Assembly (NCBI GenBank): GCA_020721965.1
Contig: DYLS01000023.1
Span: 1 to 49,085 of the forward strand
DNA from: Blastopirellula marina
GTDB taxonomy: Bacteria; Planctomycetota; Planctomycetia; Pirellulales; Thermoguttaceae
Direction: 5' to 3'
Length of the DNA stretch: 49,085 bases
Shown: piece after piece, positions 42,202 to 48,191 of the stretch
Numbering within the stretch: position 1 is the first letter of the stretch
How the letters are laid out: the number at the start of each line of letters is the position of its first letter
Translations under genes and position numbers: made by a program
Notes under the pieces: model-generated
The model's input: only the letters and a program-made list of their open reading frames with translations
Told to the model about the DNA's origin: nothing
The model's database searches: none

Positions 42202-42447
42202 ATGGATCTCAACGCGTTAAAGCCGGACAAAGTTGTGGACGCTCGTTCATTGGCTTGCCCTGGACCGCTGCTGGAAGCCAAGAAGGGTATCTCGGGTGTA
42301 GCGGCAGGTGGTGTGTTGGAAATTCTTTCGGGCGACAAGGGTAGTCGTGAGGATATCCCCGCTTGGTGCGATAAATCGGGGCACGAATATGCCGGCCTGA
42401 TTGAGCGTGAGGGCTACGACAGCCACTTTGTTATCCGGAGGAAGTGA
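42202..42447 (+). CDS. tusA: TusA-family sulfur carrier protein
   Basis: 81-aa protein of the TusA/SirA family. The sulfur-carrying cysteine is Cys19 in the hallmark CPGPLLEAKKGI, followed by VLEILSGDKGSREDIPAWCD, the usual second beta-strand and helix. TusA proteins carry a persulfide between sulfurtransferases, either in tRNA modification or dissimilatory sulfur metabolism. ATG 42202 follows AAAGGAG. It is the first gene of a run that also contains FlpD, two HdrA proteins, a QmoC-like protein and DsrE2, so here it probably delivers sulfane sulfur to that dissimilatory module rather than to tRNA. That role is inferred from context. Confidence 0.93.
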   Translation: MDLNALKPDKVVDARSLACPGPLLEAKKGISGVAAGGVLEILSGDKGSREDIPAWCDKSGHEYAGLIEREGYDSHFVIRRK

Positions 42448-42516
42448 TTTTCCGCGATCTGACCGTCGGGTTGTAAGCCGTTGCTGGTGTCCCGCTGCCC
42501 ATCGCGAAGGGGAGCC

Positions 42517-42897
42517 ATGTCGCTCAAGAAGATTCTCATCATCACCACCGAGCATGCCTCTTACCCTGCCGCCAACGCCGTAGGCCAAGGTAGGATGGGG
42601 TACGACGCGAATACCTGTATCATTCGCGTTCCGGATCCGGTGATGTTTCCGGAAGACTTCTACATCCGGGCATTTGAAAAGGGAATCGGCGGCATCATCA
42701 TCATGTCCTCCGGTTCCGATTGTCCGTACGAAGGTGCGTACGAGCGGCTAGCCAAACGTGTCGACCGTGTTTATGCGAAAATGCAGGAGGGAGGGATTGT
42801 CCCCTCACGTCTGAAGCTCACCACAATCTGCTCGGTGTGCCGGGCAGCCTTCCTGAAAGAAATTGCCGAAATGGAGAAGGTGGTCGCTGCCTTATGA
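42517..42897 (+). CDS. Stand-alone FlpD/MvhD-type electron-transfer subunit
   Basis: 126-aa protein of the MvhD/FlpD family (hydrogenase iron-sulfur delta subunit). In methanogens FlpD/MvhD links an electron donor to heterodisulfide reductase HdrA; in QmoB the same domain is fused to HdrA. Seen: ASYPAANAVGQGRMGY near the N-terminus, where relatives carry cysteine before the aromatic residue, then Cys34, Cys69 in SSGSDCPYEGAYERL, and Cys105/Cys108 in ICSVC. The first canonical cysteine is missing, so the [2Fe-2S] ligand set may be altered. ATG 42517 follows AAGGGGAG. It overlaps the next gene by ATGA. Confidence 0.88.
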   Translation: MSLKKILIITTEHASYPAANAVGQGRMGYDANTCIIRVPDPVMFPEDFYIRAFEKGIGGIIIMSSGSDCPYEGAYERLAKRVDRVYAKMQEGGIVPSRLKLTTICSVCRAAFLKEIAEMEKVVAAL

Positions 42898-44207
42898 CGG
42901 AGAGTATCGAAGTCGATGTACTCGTCATCGGTTCGGGTATTGCCGGTCTGCAAGCCTCGCTGGACGTCGCCGACCAGGGGTTTTCGGTCGCAATCGTCGA
43001 AAAGTCGCCGAGCATCGGCGGCAAGATGATATCGCTCAGCAAGGTATTCCCGACGCTCGACTGCGCGAGTTGCATTACCACGCCGCGCATGGCTTCCGTT
43101 TCGCATCACCCGCGCATTCAAACCTTCACCTACAGCGTTGTGGAGGCCATCCGGCGTGTGAACGGAAGCTTTGTGGCGGCCGTCACGCGTCGGCCTCGCT
43201 ATATCGACGAAGCCGCGTGCATCTCGTGCGGTCACTGCGAGGATGCCTGTCCCGTCTATGTACCGGACGAATTCGAGGTAGGCCTGGGAACGCGGAAAGC
43301 CATTTCCATTCCTTTCACCAATGCCATCCCGCAATTTCCCGTCTTGGATATGCAATATTGCATTCGCTGTGGGGCCTGCGCTCGTGCCTGCCCAAAGGAG
43401 TGCATCAACTTCCTGCAACAACCGTCCCCCTTGGAAATCACTGCTAAGGCGGTGATCCTGGCCACCGGCTACGAGACCACCCCCATGACGATCAAGAAGC
43501 AGTATGGGATGGGGCGATTTCCCAACGTAATCTCAGCCCTGGCCGCAGAGCGACTGCTAGCACCGCACGGTCCGTATGGCCGCGTCCTGCGTCCCTCCGA
43601 CGGTAAGGTGCCTGATTCCATCGCCTACGTGCAATGTGCCGGGTCGCGCGACAGCAGCATTGGCGTCCCGTACTGCTCGCGAGTTTGCTGCATGTACGCT
43701 ATCAAGCAGGCCATCTTGCTTTCCGGGTCGTTGCCGCGAGCCGACATCACGATCTACTATATGGACATTCGCGCGTTCGGCAAAGGATATGAGCAATTCT
43801 ACAAATTCGCTCGGGACATGGACATTCACTTCATCAAGGCCAAGGTAGCGCGTATTACCGAAGATGCCGCGCATGACCTGATCCTTCACATCGAGCGACA
43901 GGAGGGAACATCGGCCCCCGAGGAGGTGAAACACGATTTGGTAGTGCTCTCTCAAGGCATCGTGCCCGGCTGCGACGTCTCTAGGTTTAGCCTTGATGTT
44001 CCACGCAACGAGTTTGGTTTTATGGGTCCCGCGAACGAGCACCTTTCTTCATCGGTCACCACCACGACGGGCGTGTTCGTTGCTGGTGCAGCCAAGGGTC
44101 CCCGTGATATTCCAGACTCGGTGATTGACGCCAGTTCCGCCGCGGTGGAAGCCGTTAATTACATCAGGAGCATGGCATCAGGAGCACGGCATGAATGCAA
44201 ATGTTGA
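42894..44207 (+). CDS. HdrA/QmoA-like FAD and iron-sulfur oxidoreductase subunit
   Basis: 437-aa flavoprotein of the HdrA family, closest in layout to QmoA. The FAD-binding Rossmann motif is VIGSGIAGLQAS (GSGIAG, residues 13-18), followed by VEKSPSIGGK and a cysteine pair TLDCASC (57, 60). Two [4Fe-4S] sites: Cys109, 112, 115, 119 (CISCGHCEDACP) and Cys156, 159, 162, 166 (CIRCGACARACP). Later conserved motifs are VILATGYE, VQCAGSRD and YCSRVCCMYAIKQA. It would pass electrons between FlpD and the membrane subunit via FAD. It starts inside the FlpD stop and overlaps the next gene by 17 bases. Confidence 0.93.
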   Translation: MTESIEVDVLVIGSGIAGLQASLDVADQGFSVAIVEKSPSIGGKMISLSKVFPTLDCASCITTPRMASVSHHPRIQTFTYSVVEAIRRVNGSFVAAVTRRPRYIDEAACISCGHCEDACPVYVPDEFEVGLGTRKAISIPFTNAIPQFPVLDMQYCIRCGACARACPKECINFLQQPSPLEITAKAVILATGYETTPMTIKKQYGMGRFPNVISALAAERLLAPHGPYGRVLRPSDGKVPDSIAYVQCAGSRDSSIGVPYCSRVCCMYAIKQAILLSGSLPRADITIYYMDIRAFGKGYEQFYKFARDMDIHFIKAKVARITEDAAHDLILHIERQEGTSAPEEVKHDLVVLSQGIVPGCDVSRFSLDVPRNEFGFMGPANEHLSSSVTTTTGVFVAGAAKGPRDIPDSVIDASSAAVEAVNYIRSMASGARHECKC

Positions 44208-45978
44208 GGGCAACGTACCCGGCGATGTCAGCGGTCGCCAGCCGAAGGTAGCGGTGTACATTTGCCACTGCGGAGGAAATATCTCCGACACGGTCGATGT
44301 GGCCGCGGTCGCCGCCGCAATGGCGCAATACCCCGGTGTGGCCATCGCGCGGGAGTACCCCTTCATGTGCTCGTCGGGTGGCCAGGACCTGATTCTCGAC
44401 GACATTGCCAAGCTCGGTGTCGAGCGAGTGGTGGTAGCTGCCTGTGCTCCCAGCCTGCACGAGCTTACCTTCCGCGGCGTTCTACAGCGTGCCGGCATCA
44501 ATCCCTACCTCTATGAGCATGTTAACATCCGCGAACAGGTCAGTTGGGTTCACAAGGCAGACCACGACGGTGCCACAGCCAAGGCCATTCGACTGGTTCA
44601 GGCGGGTGTGGAAAAGGTGTTGCGACAGGCACCGCTCAGCGCTTTGCATGCCCCGGCAAATCGGCGCGTCGCAGTCATCGGTGGCGGCCCCGCTGGCTTA
44701 AAGGCCGCCTTGTGCCTGGCAGCCAAGGGGCACGAGGCCGTGATCATCGAGAAGGCTCCATGGCTCGGTGGAAAGCTGCGAGATCTGGGCAAAGTGTTTC
44801 CCACCGGTGCCGAAGCCTCCGAAACCCTGCGAAAGCTGGAAGAGCTTGTGGCCGCCGAGAAACGGATCACCGTTCATACCAGAGCGGAAATCGATTCCAT
44901 CAGCGGATTCGTCGGCAACTTCACGATCACTTTCAACACCCCGGATGGCTCGTCCCAAGTGACTGCTGGGGCCGTCATCGTAGCCACTGGGTTTGAGCAT
45001 TATCGCCCGCATCCAGGCGAGTTTGGTTACGGCCAAGCGGCCCACGTCATCACCTTGCCGGAATTGATCTCGCTGTTGAAGGACTCCCCCCCGCGACGAC
45101 TGGAGCACCATGGCAAGGAGATCAAAAGCCTGGCCATGATCCACTGTGTCGGTTCACGGCAAGTGGAAGGCGTACATCAGCCACAAGCAGATGGCAAAGT
45201 CAACGACTATTGCTCACGCGTTTGCTGTTCCGCAGCCCTCTACACGATCAACCGGTTGAAAGACAAATATCCTCACGTACGAATCTACGACATCTATCGC
45301 GATATCCGTAGTTATGGGATGCAGCACGAGGGCTATTACGAACGGGCGTCCAAGCACGGAGTGCTCTTCTTTCGTCACACCGAAACCGACCAGCCGATCG
45401 TGGAATCCTCGGAGCGAGGCCACACCGTCAAGGTGAAGGACGTGCTGACTTGGAACGAGGAAATGGAGATGCAGGTGGACTTGCTCGTGTTGGTGACCGG
45501 CATGATGCCTTCCGACACGAAGCGGCTGACCTCGCAACTCAAGCTATCGGTAGGCGCGGACCGCTTTCTGCAGGAGGTGCATCCCAAGCTGCGTCCGGTG
45601 GAAATGGCCATCGAGGGGGTCTTCGTGGCCGGTGCTGCCCAAGCGCCCATGGATATGACGGAGGCCATCGCCGCGGGAGCGGCCGCTGCCGCCAAGGCTG
45701 CTATCCTCCTCTCGGAGCCGGAAATCCCATTGAAACCCTTCGTGGCCGTGGTGGACGAGAGCCGATGCACAGGCTGCGGCGATTGTCTTGCCGAATGTTC
45801 GTACCAAGGTACCCTGGTAATGGCTGAAGTAAACGGCCGAACCGTGGCTCAAGTCAACCCGGCACTTTGTAAGGGTTGCGGTGCGTGCGTAGCCGTCTGC
45901 CCGACCCGCGCGATCAACGTGGCTGGATGGACGTTGGATCAATTCGAGGCCATGGTGGAGGCGATCGCAAAGGCCTGA
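44191..45978 (+). CDS. HdrA/QmoB-like FAD and iron-sulfur oxidoreductase subunit
   Basis: 595-aa HdrA-family protein with the HdrA N-terminal domain (VYICHCGGNISDTVDV; Cys25, Cys27), absent from the preceding gene. FAD motif VAVIGGGPAGLKAALCLAAK near residue 155, then VIIEKAPWLGGKLRDLG. The mid-region MIHCVGSR with YCSRVCCSAALYTI is conserved, and two C-terminal [4Fe-4S] motifs are CTGCGDCLAEC and CKGCGACVAVCP. Unlike QmoB it lacks a fused FlpD domain, which is instead encoded separately at 42517. It starts at ATG 44191 after GGAGC. It is the best candidate for electron transfer to or from a soluble sulfur-redox partner. Confidence 0.93.
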   Translation: MNANVEGNVPGDVSGRQPKVAVYICHCGGNISDTVDVAAVAAAMAQYPGVAIAREYPFMCSSGGQDLILDDIAKLGVERVVVAACAPSLHELTFRGVLQRAGINPYLYEHVNIREQVSWVHKADHDGATAKAIRLVQAGVEKVLRQAPLSALHAPANRRVAVIGGGPAGLKAALCLAAKGHEAVIIEKAPWLGGKLRDLGKVFPTGAEASETLRKLEELVAAEKRITVHTRAEIDSISGFVGNFTITFNTPDGSSQVTAGAVIVATGFEHYRPHPGEFGYGQAAHVITLPELISLLKDSPPRRLEHHGKEIKSLAMIHCVGSRQVEGVHQPQADGKVNDYCSRVCCSAALYTINRLKDKYPHVRIYDIYRDIRSYGMQHEGYYERASKHGVLFFRHTETDQPIVESSERGHTVKVKDVLTWNEEMEMQVDLLVLVTGMMPSDTKRLTSQLKLSVGADRFLQEVHPKLRPVEMAIEGVFVAGAAQAPMDMTEAIAAGAAAAAKAAILLSEPEIPLKPFVAVVDESRCTGCGDCLAECSYQGTLVMAEVNGRTVAQVNPALCKGCGACVAVCPTRAINVAGWTLDQFEAMVEAIAKA

Positions 45979-45992
45979 AGGTGTTCTTCATT

Positions 45993-46100
45993 CTACAGCG
46001 CAAAATCCGCCTGATTGCATGATCCGTGCGGCATAGATTGCGAGGCGTCAAGTACCATCACCACAACAGGTTGAGCCAAGCAAACAATCTTGCGCTGTAG
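45993..46100 (+). repeat. Dispersed repeat family 1, copy 5 (intact inverted ends)
   Basis: 108 bases bounded by the perfect inverted pair CTACAGCGCAA (45993-46003) and TTGCGCTGTAG (46090-46100). It is the best-preserved family 1 copy and lies between the HdrA/QmoB-like and winged-helix genes of the sulfur-redox run. Non-coding, MITE-like. Confidence 0.88.
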
Positions 46101-46167
46101 TCTGGATCGGGGGCCCAGCAGGTGCGGCCTGCACGATGTGGACAGCATACGATGCGACCAGAGAAAT

Positions 46168-46458
46168 ATGGACAAAAAAAAGATTGCTGAACAACTCAAG
46201 AAGCTCAATGAGGATGAAGGTCCTGTCACGGATGAGCTGCGCAACTACGTAGCAGCGCAAACCAAGGCACACAAAGCCATTCTGAAGTCGCTAAAGGACG
46301 GTCCCAAGTCCGTGCCGGAACTTGCGGCCGAATGCGAGCTTCCTACCGACAAGGTTCTCTGGTACGTGACCGGCCTGCGCAAGTACGGCAAGGTGAGGGA
46401 GATTCCCGGCCGCACTACTTACCCGAAATATGCGATCATGAATGCGGAGGCGGAATAG
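46168..46458 (+). CDS. Small winged-helix DNA-binding-like protein
   Basis: 96-aa protein. A charged N-terminus (MDKKKIAEQLKKLNEDEGPV) is followed by a winged-helix fold: AHKAILKSLKDGPKSVPELA, the recognition-helix-like LPTDKVLWYVTGLRKYGKV, and the wing IPGRTTYPKYAI. No cysteine cluster or enzyme motif. Its stop codon overlaps the GTG start of the QmoC-like gene by one base, so it is embedded in the operon and may regulate it or help assemble the complex. ATG 46168 has only a weak AGAGAA site. Regulator versus structural subunit is undecided. Confidence 0.8.
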   Translation: MDKKKIAEQLKKLNEDEGPVTDELRNYVAAQTKAHKAILKSLKDGPKSVPELAAECELPTDKVLWYVTGLRKYGKVREIPGRTTYPKYAIMNAEAE

Positions 46459-47573
46459 TGCAAGTCCATCCCGAACTGCTTGACGAACTGAAACAATACG
46501 GCACGTTCGATATTTCGGCCTGCTTCAACTGCGGTAACTGCACGGCTGTTTGCCGTCTTGCTCAAACGGATGCTTCCTTCCCGCGGCGGTTGATCCGCTG
46601 TGGGCAGACCGGTTTGCAGGACTCCATTCAAACGACCGTGAATCCCTGGCTTTGCTATTATTGTGGCGAATGCTCGGAAACTTGTCCGCGTCAGGCCAGT
46701 CCTGCAGAGTATATGATGGCATTGCGCCGCTACTTGATAGGTCAGTATGACATCACCGGGATTTCCAAGTTATTCTTTCGCAATAGCTGGGTGCAGTCGA
46801 TACTGACCGTCGCGATGCTCATCGCCCTGTTTGCCGGATTCATGAGCTACGTCGGCGACTTTGGCAAATTGGCCGCAATGTTAGAAGTTTTCTTCCCCGT
46901 GTATGTCTCTGTAGTGATCGTTTTATACCTCTTCCAAATCTACCGCTACGTCATCATAAAGCCGCTCGGCCAACTGGCGTTTTCCATCAGACCCAGGCAC
47001 TTTTACGAGGCACTTTACCACGGTTTCACACAAATCAACTTCACCCGTTGCGAGAAAGCGGACCTCTGGCGTTGGAGATCGCATTGGCTTGTGATGAGCG
47101 GCTATGTGATAACGCTGCTGCTTTCCAACCTGCACCTGCTGGAACCACTCCATAGGCAGTATACGCCCTTCGCACCGGTCAGCCTGCTGATCTGGTACGC
47201 CGGGCTGTCGGTCACCGTGGGCGGCGGTCTGATGTTACTCCGCAGGGTCCGCAAAAGCTCCGAATCCTCCAAGCATTCTCACCCCAGCGACTGGCTTTTC
47301 GTCACCGCTCTGTTCCTCATCGGCCTGACCGTGTTGGCCACGCATATAGCGAACGTCGCGTTCGGTCCAGAGAGTGCCATTCTCGGAGTGCTTTACAAGC
47401 TGAATATCGCCATCGAGACGACCTGGATCGTTATCGTGGTACCCTTCAGCAAGTGGATCCACATTTTCTTCCGGCCGCTGGCCATTTATCTTCACCACAC
47501 CTTGAGGGAAGTGCAACAAGGCACGGCGTTCACGTTAAAGATTGGGCAGCGACAGGGGAGCAGCGTCGCCTGA
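46458..47573 (+). CDS. QmoC-like HdrC-cytochrome b fusion subunit
   Basis: 371-aa membrane protein with HdrC-type N-terminus and a cytochrome-b-like membrane part, the organisation of QmoC. Two [4Fe-4S] motifs: Cys22, 25, 28, 32 (CFNCGNCTAVC) and Cys66, 69, 72, 76 (CYYCGECSETCP). About six helices follow, from WVQSILTVAMLIALFAGF to WIVIVVPFSKWIHIF, with helix histidines in SHWLVM, TVLATHIANV and KWIHIF as likely heme ligands. It should exchange electrons with the quinone pool at the membrane. The GTG start overlaps the winged-helix stop; GGAGG precedes it. Confidence 0.92.
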   Translation: MQVHPELLDELKQYGTFDISACFNCGNCTAVCRLAQTDASFPRRLIRCGQTGLQDSIQTTVNPWLCYYCGECSETCPRQASPAEYMMALRRYLIGQYDITGISKLFFRNSWVQSILTVAMLIALFAGFMSYVGDFGKLAAMLEVFFPVYVSVVIVLYLFQIYRYVIIKPLGQLAFSIRPRHFYEALYHGFTQINFTRCEKADLWRWRSHWLVMSGYVITLLLSNLHLLEPLHRQYTPFAPVSLLIWYAGLSVTVGGGLMLLRRVRKSSESSKHSHPSDWLFVTALFLIGLTVLATHIANVAFGPESAILGVLYKLNIAIETTWIVIVVPFSKWIHIFFRPLAIYLHHTLREVQQGTAFTLKIGQRQGSSVA

Positions 47574-47639
47574 TCGGTGCCTCCGATAAACGCGAACGAA
47601 TAAAACAGTCGAGTAGTTCTGCTGCATTGAAGGGATGAC

Positions 47640-48191
47640 ATGGACAACGTTGAAGAACTCCAGCAAAAGATCGCGGAACTCGAAAAACGTCTTTCGCTCG
47701 TCGAGCGTAACACTCCCGGCGACAAACTGTCGATGGTCATTATGAGCGGGGATCTGGACAAGCTGCTGGCCGCCTTCATTATCGCCACCGGTGCCGCAGC
47801 AATGTATGACGAGGTGGTGATGTTCTTCACCTTTTGGGCCATACCCGCTTTGAAAGACCCGAAAAAGACCGTCCCCAAGAGTATGGTCTCGAAGATGTTC
47901 GAATGGATGCTGCCGAAAGGTGCGGCTGACACGAAGCTCTCCCAGATGAACATGTGCGGGATGGGCAAGGCCATGATCAAGAGCATCATGAAAAAGCATC
48001 ATGTCCTGAGCCTGGAACAGTTGATGCAAGTCGCCGCCGATTCCGGTGTGCAGATCTACGTCTGCCAAATGAGCATGGACCTCATGGGCTACAAGATGGA
48101 GGAAATGATCGACTACCCCAATATCAAAAGCGCGGGTGTCGGCAAATTCCTAGCGGAAGCCGGTAAAAGCCGGGTCACCTTGTTCATTTGA
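47640..48191 (+). CDS. DsrE2-type sulfurtransferase (DsrE/DsrF/DrsH-like)
   Basis: 183-aa protein of the DsrE2 subgroup (DrsE_2). A short coiled-coil-like N-terminus (VEELQQKIAELEKRLS) precedes the alpha/beta core. Hydrophobic segments around residues 42-70 (KLLAAFIIATGAAAMYDEVV) are typical of DsrE2. Conserved cysteines are Cys106 in NMCGMGK and Cys142 in VCQMSMDLMG, the family persulfide site. DsrE2 proteins pass sulfane sulfur with TusA and rhodanese. Located 66 bases after the QmoC-like gene, it closes the run that TusA opens, which supports one sulfur-handling unit. Confidence 0.92.
   Translation: MDNVEELQQKIAELEKRLSLVERNTPGDKLSMVIMSGDLDKLLAAFIIATGAAAMYDEVVMFFTFWAIPALKDPKKTVPKSMVSKMFEWMLPKGAADTKLSQMNMCGMGKAMIKSIMKKHHVLSLEQLMQVAADSGVQIYVCQMSMDLMGYKMEEMIDYPNIKSAGVGKFLAEAGKSRVTLFI

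Follow-up and report, generated by a model that had tools for sequence, protein, structure and literature searches.

In a 49,085-nucleotide stretch of DNA from the planctomycete Blastopirellula marina (contig DYLS01000023.1 of assembly GCA_020721965.1; this whole stretch is called the window below), we found seven genes in the order tusA-flpD-hdrA1-hdrA2-wHTH-qmoC-dsrE2, all on the + strand between positions 42202 and 48191. This module is a real and conserved variant within the Hdr/Qmo kind that is linked to sulfur carriers and has probably spread laterally, and on sequence grounds it is separate from the classical QmoABC complex. The function that we favour, as an evenly balanced judgement, is the reduction of persulfide bound to TusA and DsrE2 to sulfide by the predicted Hdr/Qmo-like complex. 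The seven genes are as follows.

42202..42447, + strand: TusA sulfur carrier, with C19 in the CPGP motif (PF01206, 66 bits; cut-off 28.6).
42517..42897, + strand: FlpD/MvhD-type small Fe-S protein, encoded by its own gene (PF02662, 63 bits; cut-off 22.3).
42894..44207, + strand: HdrA1, FAD subunit into which a two-cluster ferredoxin domain is inserted (NCBIfam NF040770, 463 bits, model positions 137-560).
44191..45978, + strand: HdrA2, with an N-terminal HdrA domain, a FAD domain and a C-terminal two-cluster ferredoxin (NF040770, 498 bits).
46168..46458, + strand: wHTH, winged-helix protein of 96 amino acids (predicted fold).
46458..47573, + strand: QmoC-like membrane subunit with a GTG start (NF038018, 128 bits; cut-off 300).
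47640..48191, + strand: DsrE2-type sulfurtransferase, with C142 (PF13686, DrsE_2, 160 bits; cut-off 25).

The gene calls agree with the initial annotation of this DNA, which had described seven genes on one strand, opened by a TusA with the CPGP motif, closed by DsrE2, and overlapping by 4 (flpD/hdrA1), 17 (hdrA1/hdrA2), and 1 base (wHTH/qmoC). The other intergenic gaps measure 69 (tusA-flpD), 189 (hdrA2-wHTH), and 66 bases (qmoC-dsrE2), leaving only three of the six junctions tight. No terminator-like sites were found in these three gaps, and the 4 promoter-like sites found there are about equal in number to the 2.7 expected by chance. At the position of the 189-base gap (45979-46167), 23 Elusimicrobia-type loci have spacings that range from an overlap to 11 bases.

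Family matches were obtained for six of the seven proteins, which bears out the earlier view of a Qmo/Hdr-type complex tied to sulfur carriers, with FlpD encoded as a separate gene. Matches to HdrA-type models cover most of HdrA1 and most of HdrA2 but stay under the full-length cut-offs; HdrA1 has two CxxCxxCx3C motifs, and HdrA2 has such motifs at residues 526 and 560. The QmoC-like protein carries hydrophobic segments and would consist of an HdrC-like two-cluster domain and a haem-b-type membrane domain, with the haem itself predicted. In PDB comparisons, HdrA2 is matched best by HdrA chains and QmoC by HdrC chains. On the DsrE2 equivalog model, the window protein reaches 67 bits as compared to a cut-off of 210. 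Among aligned relatives, TusA C19 is a cysteine in 69/69 sequences, FlpD C69, C105, and C108 are cysteines in 65-66 of 68, the eight cluster cysteines of QmoC together with H209 and H335 are invariant (86/86), and DsrE2 C142 is a cysteine in all 46 DsrE2 sequences of 170-215 amino acids. The cluster ligands of HdrA1 are invariant in the alignment, and those of HdrA2 and FlpD are nearly so.

A scan of the genome_contigs collection gave 177 relatives of QmoC, and the counts given here rest on the loci of the best 80 of these (loci, genomes, and contigs are numbered with L, G, and C, respectively). The 80 loci come from at least eight phyla, with phylum as stated in the sequence records: carriers belong to Elusimicrobia, Margulisbacteria, Bacteroidota, Chlorobiota, Chloroflexota, Desulfobacterales/Deltaproteobacteria, Verrucomicrobia, Armatimonadota (Chthonomonadales, Zipacnadia), and Planctomycetota, and some are recorded only as "bacterium". 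The order TusA-FlpD-HdrA1-HdrA2-QmoC is identical in all 65 loci showing all five genes, and since the same order recurs across phyla, the seven-gene arrangement goes beyond chance. Of the 61 loci with 6.5 kb or more of sequence upstream of QmoC, 59 have TusA and 60 have FlpD; TusA is lacking in hydrogenase-linked L096 and in L105, which is linked to the genes of adenosine 5'-phosphosulfate (APS) reductase (Apr). A DsrE-family gene follows QmoC in 35/80 loci and precedes TusA in 27/80.

The distribution of the module is patchy. It was found in 9 of 198 Elusimicrobiota genomes, a count that includes the query genome and four other known carriers, and in 5 of 395 Bacteroidota genomes with QmoC at 337 bits or more (query genome included); 12 more Bacteroidota genomes, at about 180-190 bits, probably carry classical QmoC. 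Among 294 Planctomycetota genomes, near-full-length QmoC relatives occur in the window's own genome (G000, two copies), in G169, and in G014 (two pieces), and the weaker matches that we looked into (G011, contig C23 of G169, and G139) are classical Qmo with aprA. A genome of the same genus (G167; one contig, 99% complete) gave no QmoC match at E 1e-10, and neither did the listed members of the order and class. The second copy in the window genome is a distant module on contig C278 (L109, 9,880 bases; QmoC, 35% identity), which contains genes for DsrE-like, FlpD, HdrA1, HdrA2, wHTH, and QmoC proteins and groups with L068 and the planctomycete L094.

We compared the module with classical Qmo by model scores and by trees. 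On the NCBIfam qmoC model, the 128 bits of the window protein lie below the membership threshold of 300, two module relatives score 146 and 187, and the QmoC of Apr-linked L113 scores 419; the cut-off is an imperfect divider, because the QmoC of Apr-linked L105 scores only 232. The HdrA tree, made by a quick method, has 67 rows from 28 chosen loci, four Apr-Qmo sets, the window pair, and one outgroup. In this tree, the HdrA1 and HdrA2 of the module (25 rows each) form one clade each at 100, and the QmoA and QmoB of six Apr-linked loci pair together at 100. The broad QmoC tree has 79 rows, leaving out L111 and L114 (which share their contigs with L094 and L135), QmoC open reading frames shorter than 300 amino acids, and ten near-identical Elusimicrobia-type rows; the careful tree has 33. 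In the QmoC trees, six classical QmoC (five with aprA on the stretch; L116, where no aprA was seen, is labelled by likeness) are separated from the module by a 100/100 branch, and an approximately unbiased (AU) test rejected a grouping of the window QmoC with these six (p 0.000119). Trees of this kind had been proposed in the initial annotation as a check, and they place HdrA1, HdrA2, and QmoC outside the classical Qmo clades. Four carrier genomes (G332, G333, G337, and G308) also have an aprA-qmoABC locus on a contig other than that of the module; since they encode both, the module and classical Qmo coexist as paralogues. The exception is Apr-linked L105, which has a module-like QmoC beside classical QmoA and QmoB; this mixed locus (L105/L137) suggests an exchange of the membrane subunit.

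The window QmoC nests among Elusimicrobia and one Margulisbacteria sequence in the QmoC trees (100/100 support), the window HdrA1 and HdrA2 are likewise placed among Elusimicrobia in the HdrA tree, and a grouping of the window QmoC with L094, L068, and L109 was rejected (p 0.00003). Because the window genes nest among Elusimicrobia, lateral acquisition of the operon is likely, as the simplest reading of these trees. The complex had first been taken for a planctomycete one, which is not supported, given at least eight phyla and a window copy inside an Elusimicrobia clade. The operon has a guanine-plus-cytosine (GC) content of 0.566 versus 0.620 for the first 41 kb of the window, a weak sign of transfer, as dips to 0.56 also occur in other 2-kb stretches of the window. 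Spread by known plasmids or phages is disfavoured, as a search of the plasmid collection with QmoC and one of the phage collection with HdrA2 found nothing.

The fifth gene of the operon encodes a protein with no family match in our family-model searches. A structure predicted from an alignment of the window protein with 39 of 49 candidates is a winged helix (mean predicted local distance difference test score, pLDDT, 88), and its best PDB fold matches are ArsR/MarR-type regulators and Z-alpha domains; a search for sequence relatives in the PDB gave weak matches only, headed by protein A entries, which we read as chance. The wHTH is encoded by its own gene in 54/80 loci, fused to the C-terminus of HdrA2 in 23/80, and missing in 3/80, namely hydrogenase-linked L055 and L096 and Apr-linked L105. 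All 23 fusions are from Bacteroidota as given in the sequence records. The stretches of classical Qmo (L113 to L116 and L133 to L137) yielded no wHTH. Because it can be fused to a redox subunit, the wHTH is probably a structural subunit of the complex and not a regulator; the same fusions disfavour a role as regulator of the operon.

Several known systems share parts with the module. Like QmoABC, it has two HdrA-type flavoproteins, a FlpD domain, and a membrane subunit that combines HdrC-like clusters with a haem-type domain; unlike in QmoABC, FlpD has its own gene, a further winged-helix subunit is present, the operon also encodes TusA and DsrE2, there is no AprAB partner as judged by aprA (aprB was not searched), and HdrA1, HdrA2, and QmoC fall in clades apart. 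Type II Qmo, reported in 2023, comprises HdrA-like QmoA/B, found with or without Apr and Dsr, and the accessible part of that report leaves its function unresolved (PMC10504309). Likened by this published description, the module is probably part of the type II Qmo group. The earlier idea of an undescribed system was consequently too strong, but what is accessible of the type II description (PMC10504309) makes no mention of TusA, DsrE2, or wHTH as linked genes. The sHdr system, described in the accessible part of its source as hdrC1B1A-hyp-hdrC2B2 with a lipoate-binding protein (PMC6067878), also combines HdrA-type subunits with nearby TusA/DsrE-family sulfurtransferases. In contrast, the module cluster has QmoC and no CCG-domain HdrB, and there is no match to the LbpA family among the seven operon proteins, the only part of the genome searched for it; an identity with sHdr is disfavoured by the lack of HdrB and LbpA in the cluster. 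The HdrABC-MvhADG/HdrA2 complexes of methanogens resemble the module in their HdrA domains and MvhD/FlpD, whereas the operon encodes no HdrB and no hydrogenase, includes a membrane subunit, and has two HdrA-type proteins, each with a portion of HdrA. The YTD cluster and dsrEFH type II of sulfate reducers and disproportionators likewise pair TusA with a DsrE-related gene. According to the available portions of the two descriptions, dsrEFH type II occurs with tusA and yeeE, and in archaea with qmoAB (PMC13293266), and the YTD cluster centres on YedE with no Hdr/Qmo genes listed (PMC12998232); no YedE match was found among the seven operon proteins, to which this search was confined. We found no description of this gene order, nor of a partnership of TusA, a DsrE-family protein, and wHTH, in a literature search whose coverage of subscription papers was thin, which makes this weak evidence.

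The window contig (C258) belongs to a 4.95-Mb, 97%-complete genome. In this genome, aprA had 0 matches (aprB was not searched), dsrA had only a 25-bit partial match under the cut-off (dsrB was not searched), and DsrC had no match, while a sat-like protein reached 256 bits versus a cut-off of 323 and a molybdopterin oxidoreductase match only 23 bits, below the cut-off. The initial annotation had noted that no aprAB, sat, or dsrAB lies nearby, and for aprA and over-cut-off dsrA this now extends genome-wide; it had also reasoned that aprAB and sat elsewhere, with a classical Qmo phylogeny, would mark an ordinary Qmo of sulfate reduction, and the aprA search, the sat score, and the trees all point away from this. 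Its statement on hdrB stands for the cluster but not for the genome, where CCG (HdrB-type) domains occur on other contigs, including C126. On C126 (L110), HdrA and FlpD genes adjoin VhuG-/VhuA-like hydrogenase genes with CCG domains nearby, which is likely an HdrABC-MvhADG-type cluster in a planctomycete.

For aprA and dsrA, we examined the genomes behind 50 of the 80 loci, chosen beforehand to span groups (two of these loci, L055 and L105, are not TusA-type modules); for DsrC, sat, and molybdopterin oxidoreductase, the same 50 were used with G342 replaced by the window genome. Matches over the cut-off were found for aprA in 5/50 genomes (fragmented in one more, G340) and for dsrA in 5/50, and 43/50 had neither. 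DsrC was found in 17/50 with no match in 33/50, sat was over the cut-off in 11/50, and molybdopterin oxidoreductase in 26/50. None of the 12 Elusimicrobia genomes had aprA, dsrA, sat, or DsrC over the cut-off, and 11 of the 12 had no molybdopterin oxidoreductase match.

In the mechanism that we propose, FlpD, HdrA1, HdrA2, wHTH, and QmoC would form a membrane-anchored flavin/iron-sulfur complex. This complex would transfer electrons between, on one side, the menaquinone pool or a low-potential donor in the cytoplasm and, on the other, sulfane sulfur that TusA (C19) and DsrE2 (C142) carry in persulfide form. The complex, its substrate, its quinone link, and its direction are all inferred. The direction would most likely be reductive, such that persulfide derived from elemental sulfur (S0) or polysulfide is cleaved to sulfide, and sulfide formation would serve as an electron sink for anaerobic fermenters. 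The reductive direction is favoured because the complete genome of Petrimonas sp. IBARAKI carries the module and has no match to the alternatives searched, in a genus known for S0 reduction. As far as the accessible parts of the sources go, Petrimonas sulfuriphila reduces S0 to H2S and its growth is stimulated by S0 (PMC9695182), and the genus is described as S0-reducing (PMC9695182, PMC11664143). The one Petrimonas HdrA1 that we checked contains an insert inside the ferredoxin domain, a GltD-type pair of Fer4_20 and Pyr_redox_2 domains; since this resembles a GltD-like NAD(P)H module, it suggests NAD(P)H as the cytoplasmic partner in Petrimonas. An HdrA1 of at least 850 amino acids is present in 19/72 loci (e.g., L103:3875-6703). 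A more ambitious form of the reductive reading is a stand-alone persulfide respiration complex, a Qmo/Hdr hybrid that includes the winged-helix protein as a structural subunit, in which quinol and/or NAD(P)H or ferredoxin would reduce the sulfane sulfur of TusA and DsrE2. Laterally distributed across at least eight phyla, it would fill the place of a cytoplasmic S0 reductase that is still lacking for Petrimonas and similar fermenters; we offer this tentatively, and it may well not hold.

Also in favour of the proposed mechanism are the constant gene order, the near-constant presence of TusA, the DsrE-family neighbours, the invariant cysteines of TusA and DsrE2, the lack of aprA and dsrA over the cut-off and of DsrC in most of the carrier genomes examined, and a regulator. 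Directly upstream of TusA, 12 of the 20 Elusimicrobia-type loci showing TusA have an ArsR regulator with both paired cysteines; one of these was compared with the PDB, where it matches YgaV, SqrR, and BigR entries and aligns with YgaV and SqrR including the cysteines. The paired cysteines of SqrR sense persulfide.

A number of observations weigh against the reductive reading. The complex lacks HdrB, the known disulfide-active subunit, and menaquinol is too weak a donor to reduce S0 unaided, which leaves an uphill step. No DsrE-family gene lies beside the cluster in 18/80 loci, several of which are truncated, and no TusA gene was seen on the 9.9-kb contig that carries the second module of the window genome. 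An ArsR gene is absent upstream of the window copy and of its nearest relative, L029, and none was found among the window open reading frames of at least 60 amino acids. Five carriers (G308, G332, G333, G334, and G337) also have Apr and/or Dsr genes, and G340 has dsrA with a fragmented aprA; in such carriers, an oxidative or disproportionation role is possible. The sequenced Petrimonas strain is not the one with the S0 phenotype, and its genome was searched at E 0.001 for aprA, dsrA, DsrC, sat, and PF01568 (molybdopterin oxidoreductase family), all without a match, with NSR and SudAB not searched.

An oxidative direction, in which the complex oxidises the sulfane sulfur of TusA and DsrE2 and passes electrons to quinones as in sHdr or in disproportionation, seems unlikely to us. 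QmoC would be a plausible quinone outlet, and regulators of the SqrR/BigR type are tied elsewhere to sulfide oxidation. In the accessible parts of the literature, DsrE, DsrE2, and TusA genes occur in sHdr clusters (PMC6067878), and Qmo/Hdr proteins have been suggested as the route from sulfur to sulfite in Thermosulfurimonas dismutans, a disproportionator (PMC4911364). However, neither HdrB nor a lipoate-binding protein is encoded in the cluster, and routes for handling sulfite by Apr, Dsr, or Sat are mostly missing, because 43/50 genomes have no aprA or dsrA over the cut-off and sat exceeds it in only 11/50. Many carriers, moreover, belong to fermentative anaerobic groups.

Three further readings were considered. 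TusA has biosynthetic roles in other bacteria, and the module could supply persulfide sulfur or reducing power for thiolation or cluster assembly, but a quinone-type membrane subunit would be costly for a sulfur relay, and the patchy distribution (9/198 Elusimicrobiota, and no QmoC match in the 99%-complete genome of the same genus) is unfit for an essential function; we think this improbable. Detoxifying or balancing intracellular persulfide or polysulfide with little energy gain would fit the ArsR proteins that resemble persulfide sensors in 12/20 Elusimicrobia-type loci, yet five redox-complex genes, including a membrane electron-transfer subunit, exceed such a need, and we rate it as improbable as the biosynthetic role. 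A divergent Qmo serving APS reductase in ordinary sulfate respiration, which is suggested by domain types shared with QmoABC and by the module-type QmoC at Apr-linked L105, can be given hardly any credence, as the window genome has no aprA match, aprA exceeds the cut-off in so few carriers (5/50, one more fragmented), 4 of those 5 have a classical aprA-qmoABC on a non-module contig (the fifth being L105), and the trees separate the module from classical Qmo.

Most known dissimilatory sulfur reduction is attributed either to molybdopterin enzymes in the membrane or to soluble enzymes that use NAD(P)H. If reduction of TusA/DsrE2-bound persulfide is true, the coupling of this persulfide to a quinone-linked Hdr unit would represent a cytoplasmic route of sulfur reduction and could explain the use of S0 in anaerobes such as Petrimonas, through which the function is testable in culture. 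The set TusA-FlpD-HdrA1-HdrA2-wHTH-QmoC would then also serve as a metagenome marker for a type of sulfur metabolism that is perhaps taken for Qmo at present.

Downstream of dsrE2, 15 loci, mainly Elusimicrobia-type (e.g., L050:11088-12284), encode a family of the FadL/TodX outer-membrane type, of which one member was scanned; such a protein might carry hydrophobic sulfur. In Bacteroidales, L055 (3817-11448) and L096 have the order HdrA1-QmoC-HdrA2-FlpD followed by VhuG/VhuA-like families, so labelled from sequence clustering with L110, and have neither TusA nor wHTH; these two loci possibly encode a hydrogenase-linked Qmo-like complex.

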